Below, in pieces: positions 15,013-25,184 of a stretch of 64,000 nucleotides of DNA. The DNA lies in contig NZ_BATQ01000141.1 in assembly GCF_000739635.1 (NCBI RefSeq), positions 1 to 64,000 on the forward strand. Direction: 5' to 3'. This DNA is from Verrucomicrobium sp. BvORR034 (GTDB lineage: Bacteria; Verrucomicrobiota; Verrucomicrobiia; Verrucomicrobiales; Verrucomicrobiaceae). The notes under the pieces are model-generated. The model saw only the letters and a list, made by a program, of their open reading frames with translations, did not search any database and was not told where the DNA came from. The position numbers and the translations under genes were made by a program. How positions within the stretch are numbered: position 1 is the stretch's first letter; every line of letters begins with the position of its first letter.

Positions 15013-16461
15013 TCAACGGCCATTTGGCGAAACGGCCGCACGATCGTCCGCCAGCCCCAGCGCCACCAGCACGACCTGATGATAGCCCCCATCTTCTCCC
15101 AAAAGAGGACGGCTCAGAGCGAGGTAGCCCGTGGTTCCCCCGACCATCAACGGCACCCGCTGGGACAGTGCTCCCGTCTGCGACAATGAGGTGAGCGCCA
15201 CCGTCATCGCTCGCGGGAGAGCCCGTTGCAGTTCACGGCTCACGTCTCCCACCGCAGCCGCCAGACTCCGGATCTCCTCCCCTGCCACCAGGCCACCTTT
15301 CGCATCGGTCGGCACCTGAAATGCCATGAGCAATCCCGAGCGAGTTGCCTCAGCCGAACCGGACTCGCCCGTTCGCACCACGCGAATCATCAGAGAACTC
15401 CCCCCTGCAGACTCCATCCAGGCGGCAGGTTGAGTGCTCCCCTGCGCCGCAGGCAAATCCGTGCTCCCCTTGGCAAAGTGCTGTTGCATCAACAGTGCCT
15501 CTGCGGCGCCTGGCAAGTCCATGCCAGGGAACGTCTCCCGCCCTGCCCGATACCAACTCTGAAGAGTTTCCCACTCCGCCTTCAACAGCGCCGCAGTCGG
15601 GCCACTTCCCAGCCGATTCCAGTTCACACGGAGTCGCGACTGCTCCTTCTCCTCCTGTGCCCGTTTTTCCGCCAGGAGCTGAGCTTCCTTTTCCTGCTCT
15701 TCCTCCATCTTCCGCTGGGCGGCCCGGCGTCGATCCTCCTCCTCCATCCGCGCCTGCTCCTCCGCCTTCACGCGATTCGCCGCAGACTGCACCATGGCCT
15801 TGGCCTCTTCCTCCTGACGCTGTATCTCCAACTTGCGGGTGCGCTCCAGCGCCTCTGTCATAGCGCGGGTGTCCTTTACCTTCTGCCGCTGCTCTTCCTT
15901 GACCCGGTCGTATGAGGCCCGCGTCATCCAGCGGCCTTCATACTGCACCATGCCCTGGTCCCGAAGCAGCAAAACCTCAAGGATGGGCTTCAAGAAACGA
16001 GGTGACTCCTGTCGCACCGCTGGGTACCGGGCCTCCAGCGTGCGTGTCCGCTCGACCACTTCCAGCAGAGGCGCATAGTCCTGCAGGTCCACCAAATCCA
16101 CGGCCAGCAGCACGGGATCGTACTCAACCATCCCGAAGACCTCGCTGATCAAAAACACTTTCTCCCCGCTCCCTGTCACCTGGACCTTGTAGTTTACCGC
16201 AAACTCCTCACAGCGGGAAAACGTCACCACCTTGGCGAACTCCGGACTGGTATTCGCCCCTTTCAGCACCAGCAGTCCCAAGGCCCACGCCGCCCCCGGC
16301 ACAGCCATCCCCAGACTCACCGCCATCAGCGTGACCAGCGACGCCCATGACCGCCCCCGGAGGAGGACGTTGGCCGCGGTAGGGAAGCGGGATTCAGACG
16401 GAAACGGGGGCTTCATGACGGGATCCATGGGGCAGAAAGTCGGGCCTTCATGATCCGACAC
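15013..16461 (-). CDS. Membrane-anchored coiled-coil protein, unknown
   Basis: This 482-residue protein (GTG start at 16461; in-frame ATGs at 16428 and 16416) has an N-terminal membrane anchor or signal (about 38-65, VTLMAVSLGMAVPGAAWALG). An extracytoplasmic domain follows. About residues 185-275 form a long charged coiled coil, rich in E, K, R and Q (VKEEQRQKVKD, RMEEEDRRRAAQRKMEEEQE). The C-terminal 190 residues form a second globular domain. The function is not recognised; scaffold roles are common for such a layout. It is upstream of the proline-rich membrane protein gene. Confidence 0.8.
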   Translation of the reverse strand: MSDHEGPTFCPMDPVMKPPFPSESRFPTAANVLLRGRSWASLVTLMAVSLGMAVPGAAWALGLLVLKGANTSPEFAKVVTFSRCEEFAVNYKVQVTGSGEKVFLISEVFGMVEYDPVLLAVDLVDLQDYAPLLEVVERTRTLEARYPAVRQESPRFLKPILEVLLLRDQGMVQYEGRWMTRASYDRVKEEQRQKVKDTRAMTEALERTRKLEIQRQEEEAKAMVQSAANRVKAEEQARMEEEDRRRAAQRKMEEEQEKEAQLLAEKRAQEEKEQSRLRVNWNRLGSGPTAALLKAEWETLQSWYRAGRETFPGMDLPGAAEALLMQQHFAKGSTDLPAAQGSTQPAAWMESAGGSSLMIRVVRTGESGSAEATRSGLLMAFQVPTDAKGGLVAGEEIRSLAAAVGDVSRELQRALPRAMTVALTSLSQTGALSQRVPLMVGGTTGYLALSRPLLGEDGGYHQVVLVALGLADDRAAVSPNGR

Positions 16462-16569
16462 CGGAGAACTCTACGACAAGCCCTAAAAAAATTCGAAAAA
16501 AGCGGCAGGATCTTTGCAAATTCAGTTGCAAAGATCACAGGCTGGGTAAGATAACGGCCCTCACGGAAT

Positions 16570-16644
16570 TCCTGAGTAGCTCAGCGGTAGAGCGGGTGGC
16601 TGTTAACCACTAGGTCGTAGGTTCGAACCCTACCTCAGGAGCCA
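16570..16644 (+). tRNA. tRNA-Asn (GUU)
   Basis: A complete cloverleaf is present. The acceptor TCCTGAG pairs with CTCAGGA, the D-arm is GCTCAGCGGTAGAGC, the anticodon stem-loop GGTGGCTGTTAACCACT has GTT at 16602-16604, and the T-arm is GTAGGTTCGAACCCTAC. The CCA is encoded. The 3' end is part of a perfect 9-bp hairpin (16638-16659) that extends past the gene, which is unusual because it pairs the CCA end with downstream sequence. Confidence 0.97.
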
Positions 16645-16691
16645 ATCAAAATTGGCTCCGACCATTCAACCGATCACGGTCAAAGCGCTTC

Positions 16692-16949
16692 GTGTTTTGG
16701 GTATACGTCCTCGAGAATCCATCTGGGAAGTTCTATGTCGGTCAGACGGAAGATCTGGATGCGCGCCTGCGCAGCCATAACGATGACAACTCCCCCACGG
16801 AAGGCAAATTCACCCGCAAAAACGGCCCTTGGGCCTTGGTATGGAAGGAGATTCACCCGGACCGAGCCTCCGCCATGCGCCGGGAACGCCAGATCAAAGC
16901 CTGGAAGTCCGCTCGCCAGATCCGCACACATCTGCTGGGTCGCACGTAG
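16692..16949 (+). CDS. Single-domain GIY-YIG endonuclease
   Basis: The 85-residue protein (GTG start) is a stand-alone GIY-YIG nuclease of the UPF0213/YhbQ kind. The diagnostic VYV (residues 4-6) and YVG (15-17), the catalytic arginine R25 in DLDARLRSH, and the glutamate in RRERQIKAW (E65) are all present, so it should be active. It starts 32 nt after the tRNA-Asn hairpin, and its stop codon overlaps the first bases of the degenerate second tRNA copy. This position between tRNA repeats suggests a small selfish or homing-type element, not a housekeeping repair gene. Confidence 0.9.
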   Translation: MFWVYVLENPSGKFYVGQTEDLDARLRSHNDDNSPTEGKFTRKNGPWALVWKEIHPDRASAMRRERQIKAWKSARQIRTHLLGRT

Positions 16950-17023
16950 TAGCTCAGCGGTAGAGTCCCGACTTGTCGGGATTAACCACTAGGTCGTAGG
17001 TTCGAACCCTACCTCAGGAGCCA
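16948..17023 (+). pseudogene. Degenerate tRNA-Asn copy
   Basis: The D-arm and everything from the anticodon 3' side to CCA match the intact tRNA-Asn exactly. The 5' acceptor strand TCCTGAG is missing, replaced by sequence that ends the GIY-YIG gene. The 10 bases of the anticodon 5' side are replaced by the perfect palindrome TCCCGACTTGTCGGGA (16966-16981). Neither an acceptor stem nor a 7-nt anticodon loop can form, so it cannot be a working tRNA. Confidence 0.85.
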
Positions 17024-17038
17024 ATCAAAATTGGCTCC

Positions 17039-17412
17039 CTATTCTCCAAGATTAGACTTGGGAAACTTCATTTGAATCGATGGTCGGCGCGCCATGCTCG
17101 CGACCTTTCAGGCCGCAACTCAAGGGGGATGTCTGTGCCCAGGGTCTCCGTCCATTTCGCGGCCTCGGTCCCATAGGCTGGACTCTTTAGGCCCGAATCA
17201 TCACCAGAAAACTGCGATTGTAATTTCCTCCGGCCTTTCCTTGCCGTGCGGCTACTGCGCCTGCGCTCACCGCTCCCTTGCACCGACAGTTGCAACCCGC
17301 GAGGTCCAGATTACAGTTCATGGCAAAAATACCCCCATCCACCAGTCGCCTTCCCCGCTGCTCTACCTGATTTGCCAAGTGCAAACGGTGCGCGGAGGCG
17401 GCTTTTCTTGCA
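17039..17412. other. Intergenic region before the glycan operon
   Basis: No gene is supported in this stretch of about 370 bases. It must contain the promoter of the plus-strand glycosyltransferase operon, but no obvious sigma-70 elements or terminator stand out. Confidence 0.5.
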
Positions 17413-17796
17413 ATGTCATCGCTCACACCAGTCGCATCAGTTCCCACGGCCGCCATCTTGGCACCGCCTGGCGAGGTGGCCCTATGCCCTCCTGCTCCCG
17501 CCGCCCCGGCTCCTTCATCCTCGCCATCTCCCCCGGGTGAACTCGTTGCCCTCCAGGCGCGGTGCGCCTACCTGAGCCAGGAGCTCAACCGCCGCGGTCT
17601 GGCCATTCACCAGCAGGCAGCGCGTCTCGAGGAGAACAAGGTACAAATCACCGCGCTGGAGAAACGCCTCGCCAAACAGGAGAGTGCGATCAAACGGCTT
17701 CAGAAAGTAGTGGCTTCTGCAAAAGAGTGGCAGCAACGCGGCTGGATGAAACGAGCCTTTCACAAGTGGAGGGCACCAGGCAGTGAAGGATCCTAA
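17413..17796 (+). CDS. Small coiled-coil protein, first gene of the glycan operon
   Basis: The 127-residue protein has a Pro/Ala-rich N-terminal 40 residues and then a coiled coil (about 43-100: LVALQARCAYLSQELNRR to LEENKVQITALEKRLAKQ). It ends in a basic tail (WMKRAFHKWRAPGSEGS). Similar coiled-coil tails are attached to many glycosyltransferases, so it may be a detached oligomerisation or docking module. It overlaps the GT2 gene by 14 bases, indicating translational coupling. I do not recognise a family. Confidence 0.65.
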   Translation: MSSLTPVASVPTAAILAPPGEVALCPPAPAAPAPSSSPSPPGELVALQARCAYLSQELNRRGLAIHQQAARLEENKVQITALEKRLAKQESAIKRLQKVVASAKEWQQRGWMKRAFHKWRAPGSEGS

Positions 17797-19240
17797 CGCG
17801 TCCCTCCCAAGGCAGCCCCTCAACGACAGACTCGATACATCAGATCCTGGAACGCTCCCTTGGATGCTTGGCCGGGCTGGCGGGGCGACCACCGTTCTTC
17901 TCGAGTTGACGTCTGCGCACAGCTCACCGTTCAACGGTACTGCCACCATTCAGATTGCTGCAGACCAGATCCTGTCAGTCGCTTCCGACGTCGAATCCCA
18001 ATTCCCGCTTGCGGATATCCTGCTATGGATTGGCGATGCTCACCAGCGTCCGCTGTCCGAGTGCCAAACCATCCTGCAACGGATTTCCCGGCTGACCGAC
18101 TGCATCCTTTTCGCCGCAGAGCCTCCCCCTTTCGTCTCACCTGACCAAGCAGAGACTACGGCCGCGTTGTGGCCAGATCAGTGGTCAGTCCACTTTGCTG
18201 ACGCAGGCTACACCCTGGTCGATTTGTTCCGCGATGAGCTGTGTCAGGCACCCTCCGTGCCGGACTCGCTGGCCCAGAACCTCGTGATGTACGTCCGCGG
18301 TTCCCGCCTGAAGAATCATCCCACGTGGCAACAGCACATTCTGCCCACACCCAAGCGTCGGGTGCACCCCGACAGGCTTTGCAGGCATCTGCATGAAGCG
18401 ACAGACTCGGGACAGGATTTGAAACTCTCCCCCCATCGTCTGGCAGGGGGCAGCATCGCTTCGTATCTGGCGGATCGGTGGCACGGCCACCCCGTCAAGA
18501 GCAGCATCTCCGTGGTCATCACCTTTCACAATGAAGGGGCCTATGCCCACCGCACGCTCAACGGCCTGGAGTTGATGTGCCAGTCTGCGGCCGGCCATGG
18601 TCTGCAGGTGGAACTGCTGTGTGCACTGGACAACGCCGATCCCCTGACTGCCAGGATTGTTTCCCAGCACCCGCTCGTCACCCGGCTGGGCAGATGCCTG
18701 GAAATGCGGCACGGCGATGTCGGATCCTCGCGGAACCACGCCATCGATCAAGCCAGCGGTGACTACGTTGCCATTCTGGATGGGGACGACCTCTACTCCC
18801 CCCGCTGGCTCGCACTGGCCCATCACCGGTGCCGCCAGTTTGAGTGGCCTGTCATTGTCCACCCTGAGCGTATCGTCAGCTTCGGCATTCTCAAAGGCAT
18901 GGCGACGGTGTTTGACACTACCTGCGGTGACCTGAACGAGATCTCTCCACTCACCGCCAACCGCTGGATCGTCACCTCCTTTGCTCCTAGATCCGTGTAC
19001 CAGTGCCTGCCCTACACCGCCACGGACACGGGCCGCACCGGCTTCGGCTTTGAGGACTGGCACTGGAACTGTGAAACCCTCGCCGCCGGCCTCCACCATG
19101 TGACGGCGGCGGAAACGGCCCTCTTCTACCGTCGCCGCCCGGATTCCATGGTCATGCAGCAACTCGGCCAGCGGGCCATCATCCGGCCCACCGCCCTGGC
19201 CCGCAGCCCACACTATGCCGGAGCCTACACCCCCAGATAG
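17783..19240 (+). CDS. Family 2 glycosyltransferase with N-terminal methyltransferase-like half-domain
   Basis: The 485-residue protein (GTG start) ends in a GT-A domain (about 235-470). SSISVVITFHNEGAYAHRTL begins it, and AILDGDDLYSPRW near residue 331 supplies the metal/nucleotide-sugar binding DxD. Residues 30-180 resemble the second half of a SAM methyltransferase domain (ILFAAEPPPF, WPDQWSVHFADAGYTLVDLF, LAQNLVMYV), but I see no glycine-rich SAM motif, so that part is probably inactive. It would add a sugar to a lipid-linked or surface glycan. Confidence 0.85.
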   Translation: MKDPNASLPRQPLNDRLDTSDPGTLPWMLGRAGGATTVLLELTSAHSSPFNGTATIQIAADQILSVASDVESQFPLADILLWIGDAHQRPLSECQTILQRISRLTDCILFAAEPPPFVSPDQAETTAALWPDQWSVHFADAGYTLVDLFRDELCQAPSVPDSLAQNLVMYVRGSRLKNHPTWQQHILPTPKRRVHPDRLCRHLHEATDSGQDLKLSPHRLAGGSIASYLADRWHGHPVKSSISVVITFHNEGAYAHRTLNGLELMCQSAAGHGLQVELLCALDNADPLTARIVSQHPLVTRLGRCLEMRHGDVGSSRNHAIDQASGDYVAILDGDDLYSPRWLALAHHRCRQFEWPVIVHPERIVSFGILKGMATVFDTTCGDLNEISPLTANRWIVTSFAPRSVYQCLPYTATDTGRTGFGFEDWHWNCETLAAGLHHVTAAETALFYRRRPDSMVMQQLGQRAIIRPTALARSPHYAGAYTPR

Positions 19241-19245
19241 ATCCG

Positions 19246-19977
19246 ATGCCAAAGCCCCTCCCCCCGCCGCTCTGGGTCATCGAGGACATGGTCGCACTCT
19301 CGACCGTGGAACCGCAGTTGTTTCCCGATCCCGACGACCGCCAACTCTTGTGGCATGACTACCACCCCGTCTCCAGCGCCGGTGGCGTGTACCATCGCGA
19401 TCTTCTCCCCCGGCTGCATGCCGCCCGCGCCGCACAGATCTTCATCGTCCCGAACCCGGCAGAGACCACGGCACTCCTGCAGCCGCATCTTGCCCAGGCA
19501 GCCGCAGAAGGACTCCGCTGCGCCGTTGTCTGCACAGGCTCCGCAGAGGAGAGCACAGACGCAGACTCAGACCTTGTGTTCGAGGAAACTGCATCCGTCG
19601 CGGTCATCCCCTTCGGAACACTCGCGGCAGACCTGCCTGAGGAGGAGCGTCTCACCGTCCTCGTACAGTGGCTGCAGAACTCCGGCGCCCGCATCCTGCA
19701 CATCATCCAGTGCCCCATGGGATGGCAGATCATCAGCCGCTGGGCTCGACAACTGAAGCAGACTGGCATGCGCCTGCACGTGACCGTAGCACCTGACGAC
19801 TCCACCCCTCTGGGTCAGGCCGCCGGCTCCTTGGTGACATTGTTCCCCCTCTGCGCCCGTCATCTGGACGCTCTCTTTTCCTCCTCCCAAGCCTGCACTG
19901 CCACTCTGCAACATCGCGAAGGCTACCCCTTGGAACGCATCCTCCCCCTCCCAGGCACCACCCCGTCCCACGGCTAA
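19246..19977 (+). CDS. GT4-like N-terminal half-domain protein
   Basis: The 243-residue protein has no obvious match over its full length. Its second half (ARILHIIQCPMGWQIISRWA, then LKQTGMRLHVTVAPDD) reads like the acceptor-binding N-terminal Rossmann domain of a family 4 glycosyltransferase. The C-terminal donor-binding domain with its ExxxxxxxE motif is absent. It is either a truncated enzyme or a specificity partner. It lies 5 bases after the GT2 gene and 4 bases before the next gene, well inside the operon. Confidence 0.65.
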   Translation: MPKPLPPPLWVIEDMVALSTVEPQLFPDPDDRQLLWHDYHPVSSAGGVYHRDLLPRLHAARAAQIFIVPNPAETTALLQPHLAQAAAEGLRCAVVCTGSAEESTDADSDLVFEETASVAVIPFGTLAADLPEEERLTVLVQWLQNSGARILHIIQCPMGWQIISRWARQLKQTGMRLHVTVAPDDSTPLGQAAGSLVTLFPLCARHLDALFSSSQACTATLQHREGYPLERILPLPGTTPSHG

Positions 19978-19981
19978 ATTC

Positions 19982-20701
19982 ATGCCCGACCCGTTTGTCA
20001 TCAAGATCCGTTATGGCGGTCTGGGAGACCACCTCTTCTACAGCCACCTGCCTCGTATCGCCAAGGAGACCGGCGCTGCGGACCGCGTGTACATCTCGAA
20101 CTTGTCCGAATACCGTTCCGCCGACTACAAGGAACTCGTCTGGGCCATGAACCCGTATGTGGACGGCTTTGTGGATGAGGATGCACCGTACCCTGAGTTT
20201 GACCAGGTGGAACCCGGCACGAATCTGCTGGACCGCATCATGCTCGAACGCGGGCTGGATGATGGCCTCCGCCACCACGAGCCGGAGGTCTACTACCGCC
20301 CCACGCTCCTCCCAGACTATGTCTCTGCCTACGTCTACGATCCCAACTACGTCTCCTACGTGGGCAACGCATCCGCCGAAAAGATCACCTACCAGCTCCG
20401 CCGGGATCTGCGCCATGTGATCCAGCTCCAGCCACGGGAAAAGTCCCTGCCTCTCACGAGCCATCCTCCCTTACTGACGACGCAGTCTTTCTGGCACTAC
20501 TGCGATATCATCTGCTCCTGCAAAAGGTTCTACTGCCTCACCTCCGGAGGCGCTACTCTGGCCGCCGCCCTGCACCGTCCCGCCACCGTGTTCCATGGCG
20601 TGGGACAAAACACCATGTTTCACCACTCCCATCTCCACCGATACTGCGACGTCTCACCCGAAACGGCACTCCCCAACCCCTCTGATTTCCCCATCCTATG
20701 A
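19982..20701 (+). CDS. GT9-like (heptosyltransferase-type) protein
   Basis: The 239-residue protein begins VIKIRYGGLGDHLFYSHLPR, the GGLGD start typical of GT-B family 9-like enzymes. Its C-terminal part (FWHYCDIICSCKRFYCLTSG, then GATLAAALHRPATVFHG) resembles the nucleotide-sugar site of that family. It is about 100 residues shorter than standard heptosyltransferases. Its stop overlaps the next start as ATGA. A transfer function in surface glycan assembly is inferred. Confidence 0.7.
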   Translation: MPDPFVIKIRYGGLGDHLFYSHLPRIAKETGAADRVYISNLSEYRSADYKELVWAMNPYVDGFVDEDAPYPEFDQVEPGTNLLDRIMLERGLDDGLRHHEPEVYYRPTLLPDYVSAYVYDPNYVSYVGNASAEKITYQLRRDLRHVIQLQPREKSLPLTSHPPLLTTQSFWHYCDIICSCKRFYCLTSGGATLAAALHRPATVFHGVGQNTMFHHSHLHRYCDVSPETALPNPSDFPIL

Positions 20702-21627
20702 TCATCGTCCGGCTCATGGGTGGTCTGGGCAATCAGATGTTCCAATATGCTGCCGGGCTCAGCCTCGCCACGACCCGCAGCACACAGCTGAAGCTGGACC
20801 ACAGCTTCCTGGAGGACCGCACCCCGCGCGTGAATTTCATGCCGCGAGAGTACTCTCTGAATCTCGTGGGAGTCACCGAGCCTCGAGCTACTCCGGCAGA
20901 AGTGCGTCGCTTCCGTCAGCACCTGGAACCTCAATCTCGTACTTGGACGCAAAAGCTGCGCGACCGGTTCCAACCTGTGCAATTTCACATGGAGCCGACA
21001 CCTCCTGCCTGGCAGCCAGAGTTCGCCAGCCTGCCCCGCCATACGTATCTGGAAGGTTATTTCCAGGATGAGCGATACTTTGGCCATTGCGCCGTACTCC
21101 TGCGCCAACGTTTCTTCCAAGGGCTCCAGTCCCTTCCCCATGATGCAGAGGCCGCCACGCTGGCGCAGAAAATCGCCGCGCAATCCTCCATTGCCCTTCA
21201 CATCCGGCGCGGCGACTACATCAACATCGGGCCCACCCATGCCTTTCATGGGGTCCCCTCCGTGTCTTACTATGCCCGCGGCTTGGCCGCCCTGCGCGAG
21301 GCAGGTGTTTCCGGACCCGTGTACGTGTTCTCAGATGATGTGGCATGGTGTCGGGAGAACCTTTCTGCTCTAGGCGGGCTGCACTTTGTGCCTGAATCCC
21401 TGGGAGGTCCGTCCGGCACCACGCACCTGTATCTCATGTCTCTCTGCCGCCACTTCGTCATCGCCAACAGCACCTTCGCCTGGTGGGCCGCCTGGCTGGC
21501 AGAGGAAACTGAAGCTCTTCCAAAAAAGATAATCCGCCCTGCGGCCTGGTTCCGCGCCGCAGAGTTCCGCCAGGTGCACCCCTGCCCACCATCGTGGATG
21601 GCGCTGGATGACGAAGCCGCCGCTTGA
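20698..21627 (+). CDS. Alpha-1,2-fucosyltransferase (GT11)
   Basis: The 309-residue protein shows the GT11 hallmarks: an N-terminal RLMGGLGNQMFQYAAGLSLA, the GDP-fucose binding HIRRGDY at about residue 168, and NSTFAWWAAWLA near the C-terminus. Members transfer L-fucose in alpha-1,2 linkage onto galactose or similar residues in O-antigen or capsule. It follows the GT9-like gene with an ATGA overlap and overlaps the GT10 gene by 20 bases, so all are translated together. Confidence 0.93.
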   Translation: MIIVRLMGGLGNQMFQYAAGLSLATTRSTQLKLDHSFLEDRTPRVNFMPREYSLNLVGVTEPRATPAEVRRFRQHLEPQSRTWTQKLRDRFQPVQFHMEPTPPAWQPEFASLPRHTYLEGYFQDERYFGHCAVLLRQRFFQGLQSLPHDAEAATLAQKIAAQSSIALHIRRGDYINIGPTHAFHGVPSVSYYARGLAALREAGVSGPVYVFSDDVAWCRENLSALGGLHFVPESLGGPSGTTHLYLMSLCRHFVIANSTFAWWAAWLAEETEALPKKIIRPAAWFRAAEFRQVHPCPPSWMALDDEAAA

Positions 21628-22534
21628 TGTGAACGCCCACCCCAATCCCATCCGGGTCAAGATCATCGCCCCTTGGTGCAGCGATGCCCAGATCCACCAT
21701 GAATGGAGGCGCTATGCGAGGGCAGGCGGTCGCTGGAACCATCTGCAACTTGTGATGGAGGATCCGTACGACGTCCTCGTCGTGCACAATTACCCAGACC
21801 GGCCTTTCGATCCAGCACGCACTTTAGTATATCAACACGAACCCAGTGCCTTCCGTGCCGCCTGGCCCGCCCCCTGGCACGATCCTCCAGCTGATGCCGC
21901 CGCGTTGGTGCACACGATCGACCGCCATCACATGCCGATCCACTGGTACGTGGGTTATGACCGTGATTGGGAATTCCTCACTCATGACCGACCTGAGAAG
22001 TCCCGTACCCTTTCCGCCGTCATCTCCGGCAAAGACCACCTCAAAGGTGGATGGCACCGGGCCCGGTTTGTACGGGAGCATCTGCACCACATCATCCCTC
22101 ATGTTGACCTCTACGGTCGCTGGCCTGAGCCTCCGTCACCATGCTATCTGGGAATGACGGAAGACAAAAGTGAGGCACTGCGCCCCTACCGCTACACCAT
22201 CGCCTGCGAGAATTGCTACGAGCCCAACTACTTCACTGAGAAAATCACCGACGCCATTGTTTCCGAGACGCTCGCCTTCTACAGCGGGTGCCCCAACCTC
22301 GAGGATTTCTTCGATCCTGAATGTTTTGTCCGGATTGACCTGTCCAAGCCCAAACACGCCGTCAAGGTGATCAACGAAGCGATCGCCATGGGGCTCTATG
22401 AACAACGGATCGATTCCATCCGTCGGCAAAAGAGGGCCATCTTGGACCGCCTGTCCTTCTTCCCCATGATCGAGCGGCACATCAGCGACCTGGGATTGGA
22501 CGCCATCGACTGCCAGCCGGCCTCTATTTCGTAG
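21608..22534 (+). CDS. GT10 family (alpha-1,3/1,4-fucosyltransferase-like) protein
   Basis: The 308-residue protein carries the GT10 C-terminal signature: YRYTIACENCYEPNYFTEKI at about 195, followed by TDAIVSETLAFYSGCPNLEDFF. This is the GDP-fucose site. The N-terminal half is the variable acceptor domain. Next to a GT11 enzyme this suggests a difucosylated, Lewis-like surface glycan. Final specificity is not readable from the sequence. Confidence 0.88.
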   Translation: MTKPPLDVNAHPNPIRVKIIAPWCSDAQIHHEWRRYARAGGRWNHLQLVMEDPYDVLVVHNYPDRPFDPARTLVYQHEPSAFRAAWPAPWHDPPADAAALVHTIDRHHMPIHWYVGYDRDWEFLTHDRPEKSRTLSAVISGKDHLKGGWHRARFVREHLHHIIPHVDLYGRWPEPPSPCYLGMTEDKSEALRPYRYTIACENCYEPNYFTEKITDAIVSETLAFYSGCPNLEDFFDPECFVRIDLSKPKHAVKVINEAIAMGLYEQRIDSIRRQKRAILDRLSFFPMIERHISDLGLDAIDCQPASIS

Positions 22535-22648
22535 AACTGTGATCCAGGTACACGCCTGCCTCCCTCCACGCACGCTGAACTCCCGTTTCCCCACCCCATC
22601 GCCAAACAGAGCCTTGACCCCATCCCGCCATTCCCTAGGCTGGGACCT

Positions 22649-23473
22649 ATGCGCTATATTGGGATTTCCCCCTTTCTCATCTGGCTTGCAGCAGCCCCGC
22701 TGATTTACGCCCAAGTCTCCACACCTCCATCGGCCGCGACGTCAGACGGCGCGTCTGCCACGGACGGAAAAGACACGGCAGAACGCATGGCCAAGGCCAT
22801 CACTCATGCCATCGCCGCTGGCGAGGACGTGTTGGCGCTGGAACGCAGGGACAATATTGCCGCCAGCAAGCAAGCCTCCGTCGTGCACCACACCGGGACC
22901 TTGCTCGCCTCTGCCGGGCGGGATCAGGAGGCCCTCCCCTGGCTCCAGGCCGCCGTGCGACTTACTCCCCACCGGTTCGACTGGCAGTGGAGCATGGCCC
23001 AGATGCAGAACAAGCTGGGCAACTCCCAAAAAGCCAAGTCCCTGGCGGCCCTAGTGTATGAAAGGGCCGAAGATGGCGACCTCATTTCCCAGAGCGCTGC
23101 CCTGCTGGGAAAAAAGCCCCAGTGGACCGTACCGCCCATGGCGGACACCAAGCCTGGAGAGCCAGTAATTTGCCTCACCACCGCCGGACCTGTGCAACCT
23201 TGGCTGCTGCACGCTGCCGCCCGCAGCATCGAAACCCGCCTGGGCGTCCCTGTGCGATTGACCGGCATCACGCTGGATCTTGGCAAGCCCGACCGCACCA
23301 ACGCAGAATCCGTGACAGCACAAGCCCGTCAACAGATCATCTGGGACTCAGCCTTCACCCGTCAGGTCATGAAGGAACTCAACATTCCGGGTGAAGAAGC
23401 CGCCACCGACGAAGACGTGGTGACGCTGCTGGCCACTCTCATGCTCGAGGCAGGGCAAAAAAAGCCGCCATGA
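22649..23473 (+). CDS. Secreted TPR protein with archaemetzincin-type N-domain
   Basis: The 274-residue protein starts with a signal peptide (MRYIGISPFLIWLAAAPLIY, then AQ). Residues about 60-150 look like two or three TPR helices (ALPWLQAAVRLTPHRFDWQW, AKSLAALVYERAEDG). Residues about 168-265 (VICLTTAGPVQPWLLHAAAR, SIETRLGVPVRLTG) resemble the N-terminal part of archaemetzincin proteases. The remainder of such a protease appears to be encoded by the next gene, joined by an ATGA overlap. Function unknown; the split is described in the findings. Confidence 0.7.
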   Translation: MRYIGISPFLIWLAAAPLIYAQVSTPPSAATSDGASATDGKDTAERMAKAITHAIAAGEDVLALERRDNIAASKQASVVHHTGTLLASAGRDQEALPWLQAAVRLTPHRFDWQWSMAQMQNKLGNSQKAKSLAALVYERAEDGDLISQSAALLGKKPQWTVPPMADTKPGEPVICLTTAGPVQPWLLHAAARSIETRLGVPVRLTGITLDLGKPDRTNAESVTAQARQQIIWDSAFTRQVMKELNIPGEEAATDEDVVTLLATLMLEAGQKKPP

Positions 23474-23943
23474 ACTGGCTCAACGCCTACTCTGAGGAAC
23501 TGGAACGTCCTCAATGGAGTGCCGAGACCGTCGCTGGCAAAGCAGGGAATGCTTACCGCGAACCCAACGCGACCGGTCCCAGGGTGCTGCTCAACCTGGT
23601 GCTGACCGAGGCCGACATCTTCCAGCGCGACAGCAACTACGTCTTTGCCGTGTATTGGTCGCCTCCGCCCAGTGCAGTGGTTTCCACCGCCCGGTTCAAG
23701 GCAAACTTCTACGGCACCACGCCCAATCGATCACGCCTGCAGGAGAGGATCGAAAAGCAGCTTCTCACCAGCATCGGCCACGCTGCCCGCGTGACCCGCT
23801 GCAGCGATCCTCGTTGCGTCCGCGCCTACCCGGCCTCGCTAGATGAGTTCGATGCGAAGGGCAGCACGTACTGCGCAGATTGTCAGGCCGGCATGGAGCG
23901 TTTCCTCGGGCGAAGCCTGCCTTCAGGCAAAGGAAGGGAATAG
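23470..23943 (+). CDS. Archaemetzincin-like pseudoenzyme (C-terminal part)
   Basis: The 157-residue protein matches the second half of archaemetzincin. It has LNLVLTEADIFQRDSNYVFA (strand before the active site), AVVSTARF, then a region where HEXXHXXGXXHC is expected. Here it reads TSIGHAARVTRC (residues 100-111): the first histidine, the glutamate and the third histidine are lost. The structural zinc cysteines remain (C111, C116, C135, C138, with DPRCVRAYPASLDEFDAKG between). It should fold but not cut. It lies in the glycosyltransferase operon, 14 bases before a GT8-like gene. Confidence 0.75.
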   Translation: MNWLNAYSEELERPQWSAETVAGKAGNAYREPNATGPRVLLNLVLTEADIFQRDSNYVFAVYWSPPPSAVVSTARFKANFYGTTPNRSRLQERIEKQLLTSIGHAARVTRCSDPRCVRAYPASLDEFDAKGSTYCADCQAGMERFLGRSLPSGKGRE

Positions 23944-23957
23944 GCCCCAAGCGAGCC

Positions 23958-25184
23958 ATGAAGACCGCCATCCTCTTTCTCCACTGGGGAAATGCGCAGG
24001 AATGCCTGCACCTCAACCTCGCCGCCATTCAGGCGCGACTGTGGAACCCCCATGCGAAAATCTATGTGCTGGCCGATGCTGCCGCACGTGAATCCCTGAC
24101 CTTGCCCGGAGTCGAAGTGGTTCCTCTTGAGGACTACCACACGGCTGCAGAGAGCTTTCGCGGCCACTATGTCCATTTCAGCGTCAACCGGCCCGCATAC
24201 ACCCGGTTCAACATCGAGCGCTGGTTTATCATGCGCGATTTTGTGCGGCAACACGGCCTGCAGCGCATCCTGCACCTCGACAGCGATGTGCTGCTCTATG
24301 ACGATGTCGAGGCCGCAGGCCAGCAGTTCGAGGAATGCGATCTGACTCTGAGCTGGCCGTCCACCTCACAGGTCCCGAACTCCTCTGGACACAGCTCGTA
24401 CTTCAACCTCCGTGCGCTGGAGGAGTTCAGTGCATTCGTAGAAGCCGCGTATGCCGATCCCGCCACGATCGAGGCCTTCGAAAACCGGGTGGCTGGGCGC
24501 CGGGCCAACGGCGGCGTCTACAATATTGGCGACATGTATCATCTGGCCTGCTTTTCCCTGACCACACAGCTCAAGATCGGCTATGGCCAGCAAGGCCACC
24601 CCCTGTTTGACGGGAACATCAACTACGATTTCGAAACCAAATCGAGATTGGCTGACGGGCACAGACCGATCGAGTATCGCAAGGGGCAACCGCACGCTCG
24701 ATACGCAAGCCAGGAGAAAGTCGTGCGCTATGCCACCCTGCATTTTCAAGGGCGGGCCAAAGCGTGGATGCCGGAGAACCTCCAGGCCCCGGAAGGCACC
24801 CAGCTCCCCTGTGATCTGCTTTTCCCCCTCATGGCCCGGCTGAGCCGCACTACCAACCACAGCTTGGGCGAATCGAAATCCGCCAAGCTCGACTTTCAAA
24901 AAGAACGCGACAAGGCGCTGGCAACCGCAGCGTCGTTGCAAAGTGAGTGTGAAAGTCTCAAGGAACGACGGGCGGAAGATGCCCGGAATCTGAAAGTCAT
25001 CCGTCAGGCCATGGCTCAGGCAGAAAAGAAGGTGGAAACAGCCGCCCGGTCCCAGTGGGTGACCCGCGGCACCCAGCTTGGCCTCACCAAAGCCGGCACC
25101 CATCTGCAGAGTGCAATTGACCATCTACAGGTCCCGCAGCAGAAGCAAAATCCAGACTCGCCACCAAAGTCGACTAGGAAATAA
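23958..25184 (+). CDS. GT8-like glycosyltransferase with coiled-coil tail
   Basis: The 408-residue protein starts MKTAILFLHWGNAQECLHLN and has a GT-A fold core (1-270) with a DxD motif in ILHLDSDVLLYDD (about 108-120). A C-terminal coiled coil follows (about 315-375, KERDKALATAASLQSECESL). The second half contains ANGGVYNIGD and ATLHFQGRAKAWMP, which fit a nucleotide-sugar transferase acting on a surface glycan. It closes the operon. The acceptor is unknown. Confidence 0.8.
   Translation: MKTAILFLHWGNAQECLHLNLAAIQARLWNPHAKIYVLADAAARESLTLPGVEVVPLEDYHTAAESFRGHYVHFSVNRPAYTRFNIERWFIMRDFVRQHGLQRILHLDSDVLLYDDVEAAGQQFEECDLTLSWPSTSQVPNSSGHSSYFNLRALEEFSAFVEAAYADPATIEAFENRVAGRRANGGVYNIGDMYHLACFSLTTQLKIGYGQQGHPLFDGNINYDFETKSRLADGHRPIEYRKGQPHARYASQEKVVRYATLHFQGRAKAWMPENLQAPEGTQLPCDLLFPLMARLSRTTNHSLGESKSAKLDFQKERDKALATAASLQSECESLKERRAEDARNLKVIRQAMAQAEKKVETAARSQWVTRGTQLGLTKAGTHLQSAIDHLQVPQQKQNPDSPPKSTRK

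Follow-up and report, generated by a model that had tools for sequence, protein, structure and literature searches.

A 379-bp GIY-YIG nuclease unit at tRNA-Asn of Verrucomicrobium sp. BvORR034 and its apparent relatives in tRNA genes of several bacterial phyla

Anatomy of the tRNA-Asn locus

The window analyzed herein is a stretch of 64,000 nucleotides from Verrucomicrobium sp. BvORR034. An intact tRNA-Asn gene with the anticodon GTT lies at 16570-16644 on the forward strand, as do all features of the locus, and was identified by ARAGORN and by Rfam (70.7 bits). It is the sole full-length tRNA-Asn match in the 8.58-Mb genome; apart from a broken copy next to it, the other matches reach at most 84% over at most 58 nt. 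The 3' end of the tRNA pairs with the downstream DNA to form a hairpin at 16638-16659 (GGAGCCAATCAAAATTGGCTCC). Since no T-run follows this hairpin, transcription may read through from tRNA-Asn into the nuclease gene behind it. This gene is an open reading frame of 85 amino acids with a GTG start and a TAG stop (16692-16949), and it encodes a single GIY-YIG domain (PF01541 at 1.1e-17).

The broken tRNA-Asn copy was delimited by Rfam and repeat comparison at 16948-17022, with its hairpin extending to 17038. It consists of tRNA positions 6-23, a palindrome, and tRNA positions 34-75. It is without the 5' acceptor strand, and its Rfam score of 26.9 bits is slightly under the cut-off of 29. Two exact repeats are shared with the intact gene. 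The first repeat, of 18 nt (tRNA positions 6-23), is located at 16575-16592 and 16948-16965. The second repeat, of 57 nt (tRNA positions 34-75 and the hairpin), is located at 16603-16659 and 16982-17038, and its two copies are spaced by 379 bp. The stop codon of the nuclease gene (16947-16949) overlaps the tRNA-derived segment. In the broken copy, 10 nt of the anticodon arm (CGGGTGGCTG in the intact gene) are exchanged for 16 nt (TCCCGACTTGTCGGGA, 16966-16981), a palindrome with arms similar to those at other loci. An earlier note, made from the letters of this DNA, had described the intact tRNA, the open reading frame, the broken second copy, the identical 57 nt, the hairpin joining the CCA end to downstream DNA, and the overlap of the stop codon. 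All of these were recovered, with the hairpin inside both 57-nt copies. Two descriptions were adjusted. The second copy does contain the 57-nt 3' part that was named, but it also holds the 18-nt 5' repeat. The palindrome does sit in the anticodon arm, but it is not a perfect 16-nt one, having 7-bp arms and a 2-nt spacer.

Read as an insertion, the unit covers 379 bp at 16660-17038; 16603-16981 is an equivalent reading, and the identical 57 nt make the two indistinguishable. The tRNA 3' part is carried by the unit and the gene is restored, at this locus and also at others. The occupied locus keeps an intact tRNA, and the palindrome disrupts the displaced copy only. No integrase or transposase was found in the 379-bp unit or among the 10 neighbour proteins scanned, several of which had no family match. 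The pattern TCCCGACN{0,6}GTCGGGA was found at 22 sites in the whole genome, all with the 2-nt spacer, and the reversed pattern at 1 site. This excess of the palindrome, together with the repetition of the anatomy in other genomes, indicates that the locus is not a product of chance.

The tRNA-Asn locus was compared among 30 loci from 30 related genomes, the window's genome included, as the earlier note had proposed. A GIY-YIG gene was found in the window only (1/30), so its presence is sporadic. In the congener G002, tRNA-Asn, the hairpin and approximately 40 nt at the start of the nuclease gene are kept and followed by a deletion; this decayed remnant is too short to score as GIY-YIG in the survey. 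The only other second tRNA-Asn 3' part among the 30 loci belongs to two intact tandem tRNAs. In the congener G003, tRNA-Asn and the same hairpin are followed by CTTTTTT, and the unit is not present. This locus was rejected as a clean empty site, as its right flank matches window 23947-25160 and approximately 6.9 kb are absent too. The absent DNA corresponds to window 17040-23946, a glycosyltransferase-rich stretch to the right of tRNA-Asn. Judging from this absence in G003, the right side of tRNA-Asn is variable within the genus. Four more Asn loci were inspected. At L094, from another family, the palindrome occupies exactly the tRNA position seen in the window, after 23 and resuming at 34. 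At L099 and L122 it lies further 3', and L102 is without a broken copy.

The residues Y5, G17, R25 and E65 are invariant in 36 aligned relatives of the nuclease, and Y15 is nearly so, in agreement with the active-looking single-domain nuclease that had been noted earlier. No DNA-binding domain was found besides the 85-aa catalytic fold. The fold was predicted with a mean pLDDT of 88. The closest solved relatives, in both sequence and predicted fold, were UPF0213 proteins, followed by SLX1. In the fold search, UPF0213 BH0048 alone passed an E of 0.001, and the SLX1 and At-HIGLE chains gave E values of 0.0036 to 0.035 with a probability of 1.00. We know of no tie of UPF0213 proteins or SLX1 to tRNA genes. 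SLX1 cleaves branched DNA in a structure-specific manner and requires a partner to do so (PMC8287910); it also has a RING domain (PMC1564403). Since SLX1, a near fold relative, acts on branched DNA, the analogy suggests that the hairpin-forming palindrome may be a substrate of the nuclease.

Recurrence at other tRNA genes

The unit, composed of the GIY-YIG gene, a tRNA piece, the palindrome and a tRNA 3' part, recurs at the genes of ten tRNA isotypes (Met, Asn, Pro, Ala, Arg, Thr, Val, Lys, Asp and Gly). This recurrence supports the proposal of the earlier note that the unit is a minimal, tRNA-regenerating and presumably mobile element. At the tRNA-Met loci of the genus and family, the order is tRNA, terminator, GIY-YIG gene, GGCTCATAA, TCCCGCNN(N)GCGGGA, a tRNA 3' part starting with TCACAGG, and terminator. 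The right flank beyond the unit at the Met locus aligned in 0 of 5 genome pairs compared.

A profile search of the nuclease in 387 genomes of the phylum gave matches in 175. Among the best 30 loci, 25 had tRNA 3' sequence (intact genes included) nearby in the same orientation, and 0 had it in the opposite one. An intact same-strand tRNA was present within 400 bp upstream of the GIY-YIG gene in 21 of these 30, with 0 on the opposite strand; the best matches resemble the tRNA-associated query set, and these fractions are not descriptive of all small GIY-YIG genes. Many remoter GIY-YIG homologues are located away from tRNA genes. For the best matches of the lineage, the nuclease was found neither at one fixed position lacking tRNA fragments nor generally apart from tRNAs, yet 5/30 best-match loci were without tRNA sequence nearby. 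Twenty further loci, chosen by hand as six tandem matches and 14 more from the ranked list, had tRNA 3' sequence on the same strand in 14/20 and on the opposite strand in 1/20, and include arrays at tRNA-Arg, Thr, Ala, Ser and Pro. The counts for another locus set, which overlaps the earlier ones, were 17/28 and 0/28.

The DNA downstream of tRNA-adjacent GIY-YIG genes was examined in 100 distinct stretches, of which 53 were fetched by protein similarity or place and 47 by the palindrome pattern and thus biased. At least 10 nt of the 3' part of the adjacent tRNA were held by 75 stretches. The part extends to within 3 nt of the tRNA end in 60 stretches, and in 63 it is directly preceded by a hairpin whose arms measure at least 6. 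It starts at tRNA position 42-48 in 55/75. Among the stretches fetched by protein or place, the 3' part was present in 33/53 (27 to the end) and absent in 20/53, and the pattern-fetched stretches had it in 42/47. A 10-nt match on the opposite strand was found in 1/53 and 7/47, respectively. A strict hairpin was found in 27 of the protein- or place-fetched stretches, and 18 of these 27 have TCCCG in an arm; the arms TCCCG/CGGGA therefore also occur outside pattern-selected loci. In a second pass, a chimera was identified in 64 of 97 regions. The nuclease stop lies inside the tRNA-derived segment in 44 of the 64 chimeras, within 6 nt before it in 5, and earlier in 15.

Halves from the 5' side of the tRNA were also found upstream of the intact gene, in 23/82 loci (13/45 fetched by protein or place, 10/37 by pattern), and in 18 of the 23 they are followed by a hairpin. 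An exact 20-nt tRNA 3' part was present downstream in 47/82 loci, and both the 5' halves and the 3' part in 10/82. Upstream units form arrays of six at L237 and three at L130. In L114, left and right units share one palindrome down to its variable interior, and in L130 they nearly do; in L104 and L113 the palindromes of the two sides differ. Units without a nuclease make up arrays as well, at L106, L110, L234 and L242. The arrays at L234 and L242, from Chryseobacterium jejuense and a Flavobacteriales record, consist of at least four units of approximately 110-130 bp with palindrome, tRNA 3' part and terminator; they are candidate non-autonomous derivatives. As a separate observation, a self-complementary repeat of approximately 123 bp lies shortly upstream of the tRNA-Ala unit at L114 (approximately 842-965), and at least 15 more dispersed copies were found in the same genome (G223).

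Tandem units were found in two one-contig genomes. The tRNA-Met of G003 carries an array with a 356-bp period and identity over 501 nt, and G148 has three near-identical units. These arrays bear on the strongest rival explanation, in which unequal crossing-over or SegB-like segmental amplification multiplied tRNA pieces along with a GIY-YIG gene already resident there, giving an array that is vertically inherited and immobile. The left unit of G014 duplicates the tRNA upstream region too, a duplication absent from its congener G004, which also agrees with amplification. In the available text on phage T6, SegB amplifies tRNA and segB as tandem repeats (PMC13096335). Local amplification probably contributes to the arrays. 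As the only process it seems rather unlikely, since it would leave unexplained a junction palindrome whose arms are conserved across many isotypes and several phyla, the sporadic presence at tRNA-Asn, and the differing terminators at the two ends of the units in G004 and G014.

A tree was built from 90 dereplicated nucleases (50 fetched by protein or place, 40 by pattern) over 85 columns by a quick method that left many forks unresolved. The isotype of the adjacent tRNA changed 28 times on this tree, compared with a mean of 61.8 and a minimum of 56 in 500 shuffles. When isotypes were shuffled within the host phylum, the mean was 54.6 and the minimum 49. The window nuclease falls into a group of five (SH-aLRT 95), all beside tRNA-Asn and spread over five host families. 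The Met (19 rows), Thr (5) and Arg-TCT (4) groups each have an SH-aLRT of 99, and the Ala, Pro, Arg and Val isotypes are spread over several nuclease groups. Such tracking fits lineages bound to one tRNA, either by the specificity of the nuclease or by the carried tRNA part steering recombination. Old vertical inheritance with many losses may be an alternative for the isotype pattern. The dN/dS values in two Met-type pairs were 0.08 and 0.07 at a dS of approximately 1.3, which indicates purifying selection in Met-type relatives; the other nuclease pairs, the window's included, were saturated.

This selection, together with the stop codons and hairpins embedded in tRNA-derived sequence, could also be read as a sign of an RNA device serving the host. 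The GIY-YIG protein or the palindrome-bearing pseudo-tRNA would then act on tRNA transcripts, in processing or as an anticodon-nuclease decoy, with no mobility of DNA. The sporadic presence, the decayed remnants and truncated neighbours, and the isotype-specific clades that cross host families argue against such a device. The right units, being without the 5' acceptor strand, should not fold as tRNAs either. We regard this reading as very unlikely.

A classical type of tRNA-associated insertion is present in the same genome for comparison. A Phage_integrase gene directly follows tRNA-Met, and at a distance of approximately 75 kb there is a fragment of tRNA-Met that starts at position 33, accompanied by an older GIY-YIG unit. 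From this order, an integrase-type island of approximately 75 kb is taken to have displaced the older unit at the tRNA-Met of contig C160. The tRNA-Met was for this reason rejected as an empty locus with a native terminator: it holds the integrase gene, and the GIY-YIG relic 75 kb off starts with a tRNA fragment. The open reading frame of the first displaced unit is still intact, and a further Met-type GIY-YIG fragment was seen at C160:215074. To our knowledge, classical attR sites are without a palindrome in place of internal tRNA bases.

The unit in the window resembles integrase islands and prophages in that the element supplies the tRNA 3' part and so preserves the gene, with the former 3' part left at the far end. 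It differs in having no integrase, in its size of 0.35 kb compared with tens of kb, in the palindrome replacing anticodon-arm bases, and in the existence of 5'-side units. The Asn unit appears to achieve a tRNA restoration similar to that of a classical island with 379 bp and without an integrase. It might instead be the scar of an integrase-borne island or prophage, with an attR leaving the tRNA 3' fragment. Islands do leave tRNA fragments, as stated in the available part of PMC9897764, and the island at tRNA-Met is one example. For the Asn unit, a scar is extremely improbable given the absence of an integrase among the 10 scanned neighbour proteins, the length of 379 bp, the recurrence of the same nuclease in units of approximately 350 bp, and the palindrome in place of internal tRNA bases.

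Spread across phyla and dispersed palindromes

A DNA-only pattern, defined as the palindrome followed by the tRNA T-arm, was searched in a species-level genome collection with no protein information. At least 117 stretches were found, and 76 of the 117 listed are Bacteroidota by record title. A same-strand GIY-YIG gene lies no more than 300 bp away in 58 of the 117 matches listed, and an opposite-strand one in 0. In these 58 listed stretches, GIY-YIG was located upstream of the motif in 53 and downstream in 20. They come from Bacteroidota, Verrucomicrobia, Victivallales, Acidobacteria, Ignavibacteria and NC10 records and two unplaced ones. Bacteroidota isolates with both pattern and nuclease are Pedobacter cryophilus, Algoriphagus marincola and Indibacter alkaliphilus. 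No nearby GIY-YIG was found by the model, which was built from Verrucomicrobia, at the listed Planctomycetota, Chloroflexi, Cloacimonadota, candidate-phyla and some other records. The pattern can also match the long variable arms of tRNA-Ser/Leu, and this may explain part of the 59 listed stretches without GIY-YIG. In the 387 phylum genomes, the pattern was found in 23 and its reversed control in 0; several of these matches seem to be tRNA-Ser/Leu variable arms. The search of relatives suggested by the earlier note thus shows the nuclease and tRNA piece recurring beside tRNA genes in several phyla, and the insert in the window belongs to a widespread, apparently undescribed family in many tRNA genes.

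Viral sequences gave 38 pattern stretches, of which 2 have a GIY-YIG gene within 300 bp. A viral origin was rejected after a protein scan of viral contigs gave no relative. All nuclease matches in 9 plasmid and 13 phage records were under 60% identity.

The palindromes were further compared among themselves. In 58 tabulated palindromes, the interior is variable and the first six pairs are complementary. The palindrome class changed 11 times along the nuclease clades over all 65 rows, against a shuffled mean of 26. When the Met rows were removed, the values were 8 and 9.6, with 5.2% of shuffles as low, which is not convincing. The TCCCGC-type palindrome was counted 117 times in the window's genome, against 7 for the reversed control. 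Relative to the reversed control, this type is commoner in genomes with Met-type GIY-YIG than in the other genomes of the family (7 and 28 genomes, one-sided p 0.008, uncorrected for kinship). The test excluded G020, which had zero on both sides, and placed G002 (relic) and G017 (Met-type chimera) among the others. With G001 also excluded, p was 0.01.

Dispersed copies of the palindrome occur genome-wide outside tRNAs in the window's genome, so the palindrome may not be exclusive to the tRNA element. These copies are REP-like repeats with the core TCCCGACN2GTCGGGA, located at the 22 sites described above, and their flanks are of at least two kinds, cactcca...caagcggggccaggtg and gaggcaa...tgcc. 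No tRNA gene was found in the 14 other REP-like loci that were fetched. The unit resembles REP/REPIN sequences with RAYT in its short palindrome, and in the TCCCG-CGGGA arms dispersed in the same genome. It differs in encoding only a GIY-YIG protein and not a Y1 (HUH) transposase. The window's genome has 15 Y1 matches. Four of these loci were examined, and a TCCCG-CGGGA palindrome with 6-bp arms was found near one and near none of the other three. A RAYT-driven palindrome was rejected on this basis.

Proposed mechanism and related systems

We favor, as the probable explanation, a family of minimal nuclease-only elements that live in tRNA genes and carry the tRNA part that keeps the gene whole. 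In the unit, a tRNA 3' part with a hairpin or terminator would come first, followed by the GIY-YIG gene, a D-arm/anticodon piece of the tRNA, and the palindrome. The 5' part of the host and the 3' part of the unit would together give a complete tRNA, and the displaced 3' part would end up downstream behind the palindrome. The GIY-YIG enzyme would cut the hairpin-forming palindrome, the tRNA gene, or both. Repair through tRNA homology would insert or duplicate the unit, and the tRNA would be rebuilt at each step. In one possible route, a released unit of approximately 0.35 kb would integrate into the same tRNA gene by its carried tRNA part, which would yield the observed order of host 5' part, carried 3' part, nuclease, D-arm piece, palindrome and displaced 3' part. 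The mirror-image units, in which a tRNA 5' half is followed by the palindrome, the start of the 3' half and a spacer, would arise by a 5'-side version of the process. Such units would be selfish and mobile, and may be transferred between cells. As a counterpoint, the intact tRNA inside the unit should itself be a target if the enzyme cuts plain tRNA genes. The 6.9 kb absent along with the unit in G003, the unaligned right flanks at the Met locus and the bare catalytic fold likewise count against this explanation, as do the best-match loci and remoter homologues located apart from tRNAs.

A bolder version, put forward here tentatively, would define a home-and-rescue class of selfish units. Each unit of approximately 350 bp would be a bare GIY-YIG domain with the missing part of an essential tRNA gene, and each lineage would live on one tRNA, breaking the gene and at once rebuilding it. 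The palindrome-marked pseudo-tRNA halves on both sides would be nested traces of past invasions, in several phyla. If true, a widespread class of bacterial mobile elements would manage with a single small nuclease domain, without transposase, integrase or intron. By bringing the replacement part along, they would persist in single-copy genes that are essential, on the same principle as engineered cleave-and-rescue gene drives. Such elements could account for unexplained tRNA fragments, for tandem repeats of tRNA 3' ends and for small GIY-YIG genes that carry no functional annotation, and the function of UPF0213-like nucleases would be directly testable on palindrome, cruciform and tRNA-gene substrates.

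The components of the unit are each known from other systems. Two features of homing endonucleases are found here: a GIY-YIG domain with conserved active-site residues, and presence or absence among relatives at the target gene. Group I introns in tRNA genes are likewise inserted near the anticodon, with a GIY-YIG enzyme and the function of the host gene kept, and they differ in that the tRNA here is uninterrupted. A group I intron was rejected, as Rfam found nothing but tRNAs at window 16000-18000 and at 14 loci. The tandem repeat of E. coli tyrT/rtT similarly contains tRNA 3' ends downstream of a tRNA gene; we know of no nuclease gene in it. SegB of T-even phages, a free-standing GIY-YIG homing endonuclease, is more than a bare 85-aa domain. 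As in the present unit, its GIY-YIG gene adjoins tRNA genes and tandem repeats of tRNA and nuclease occur, whereas SegB is phage-borne and the present unit chromosomal. According to the available text of two SegB papers, the gene lies between tRNA genes and its target is a tRNA intergenic region, and that text describes no palindrome-bearing pseudo-tRNA halves or carried tRNA part (PMC2988022, PMC13096335).

The accessible part of a 2006 survey of the GIY-YIG superfamily draws no link between such genes of bacteria and tRNA genes (PMC1564403). No description of such a unit was found in the open PubMed Central literature by title and start of abstract. We rate the combination as a new kind of unit, with mobility and homing as presumed behaviors, since it lacks one defining feature each of integrase islands, group I introns and RAYT elements.

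A different GIY-YIG group was also observed directly downstream of two tRNA-Ser genes and one tmRNA gene. Its members are flanked by another hairpin repeat, like GCCCTCCGWAGCTC...GAAGGACGGGC, and not by TCCCG palindromes. This group is possibly a parallel system.
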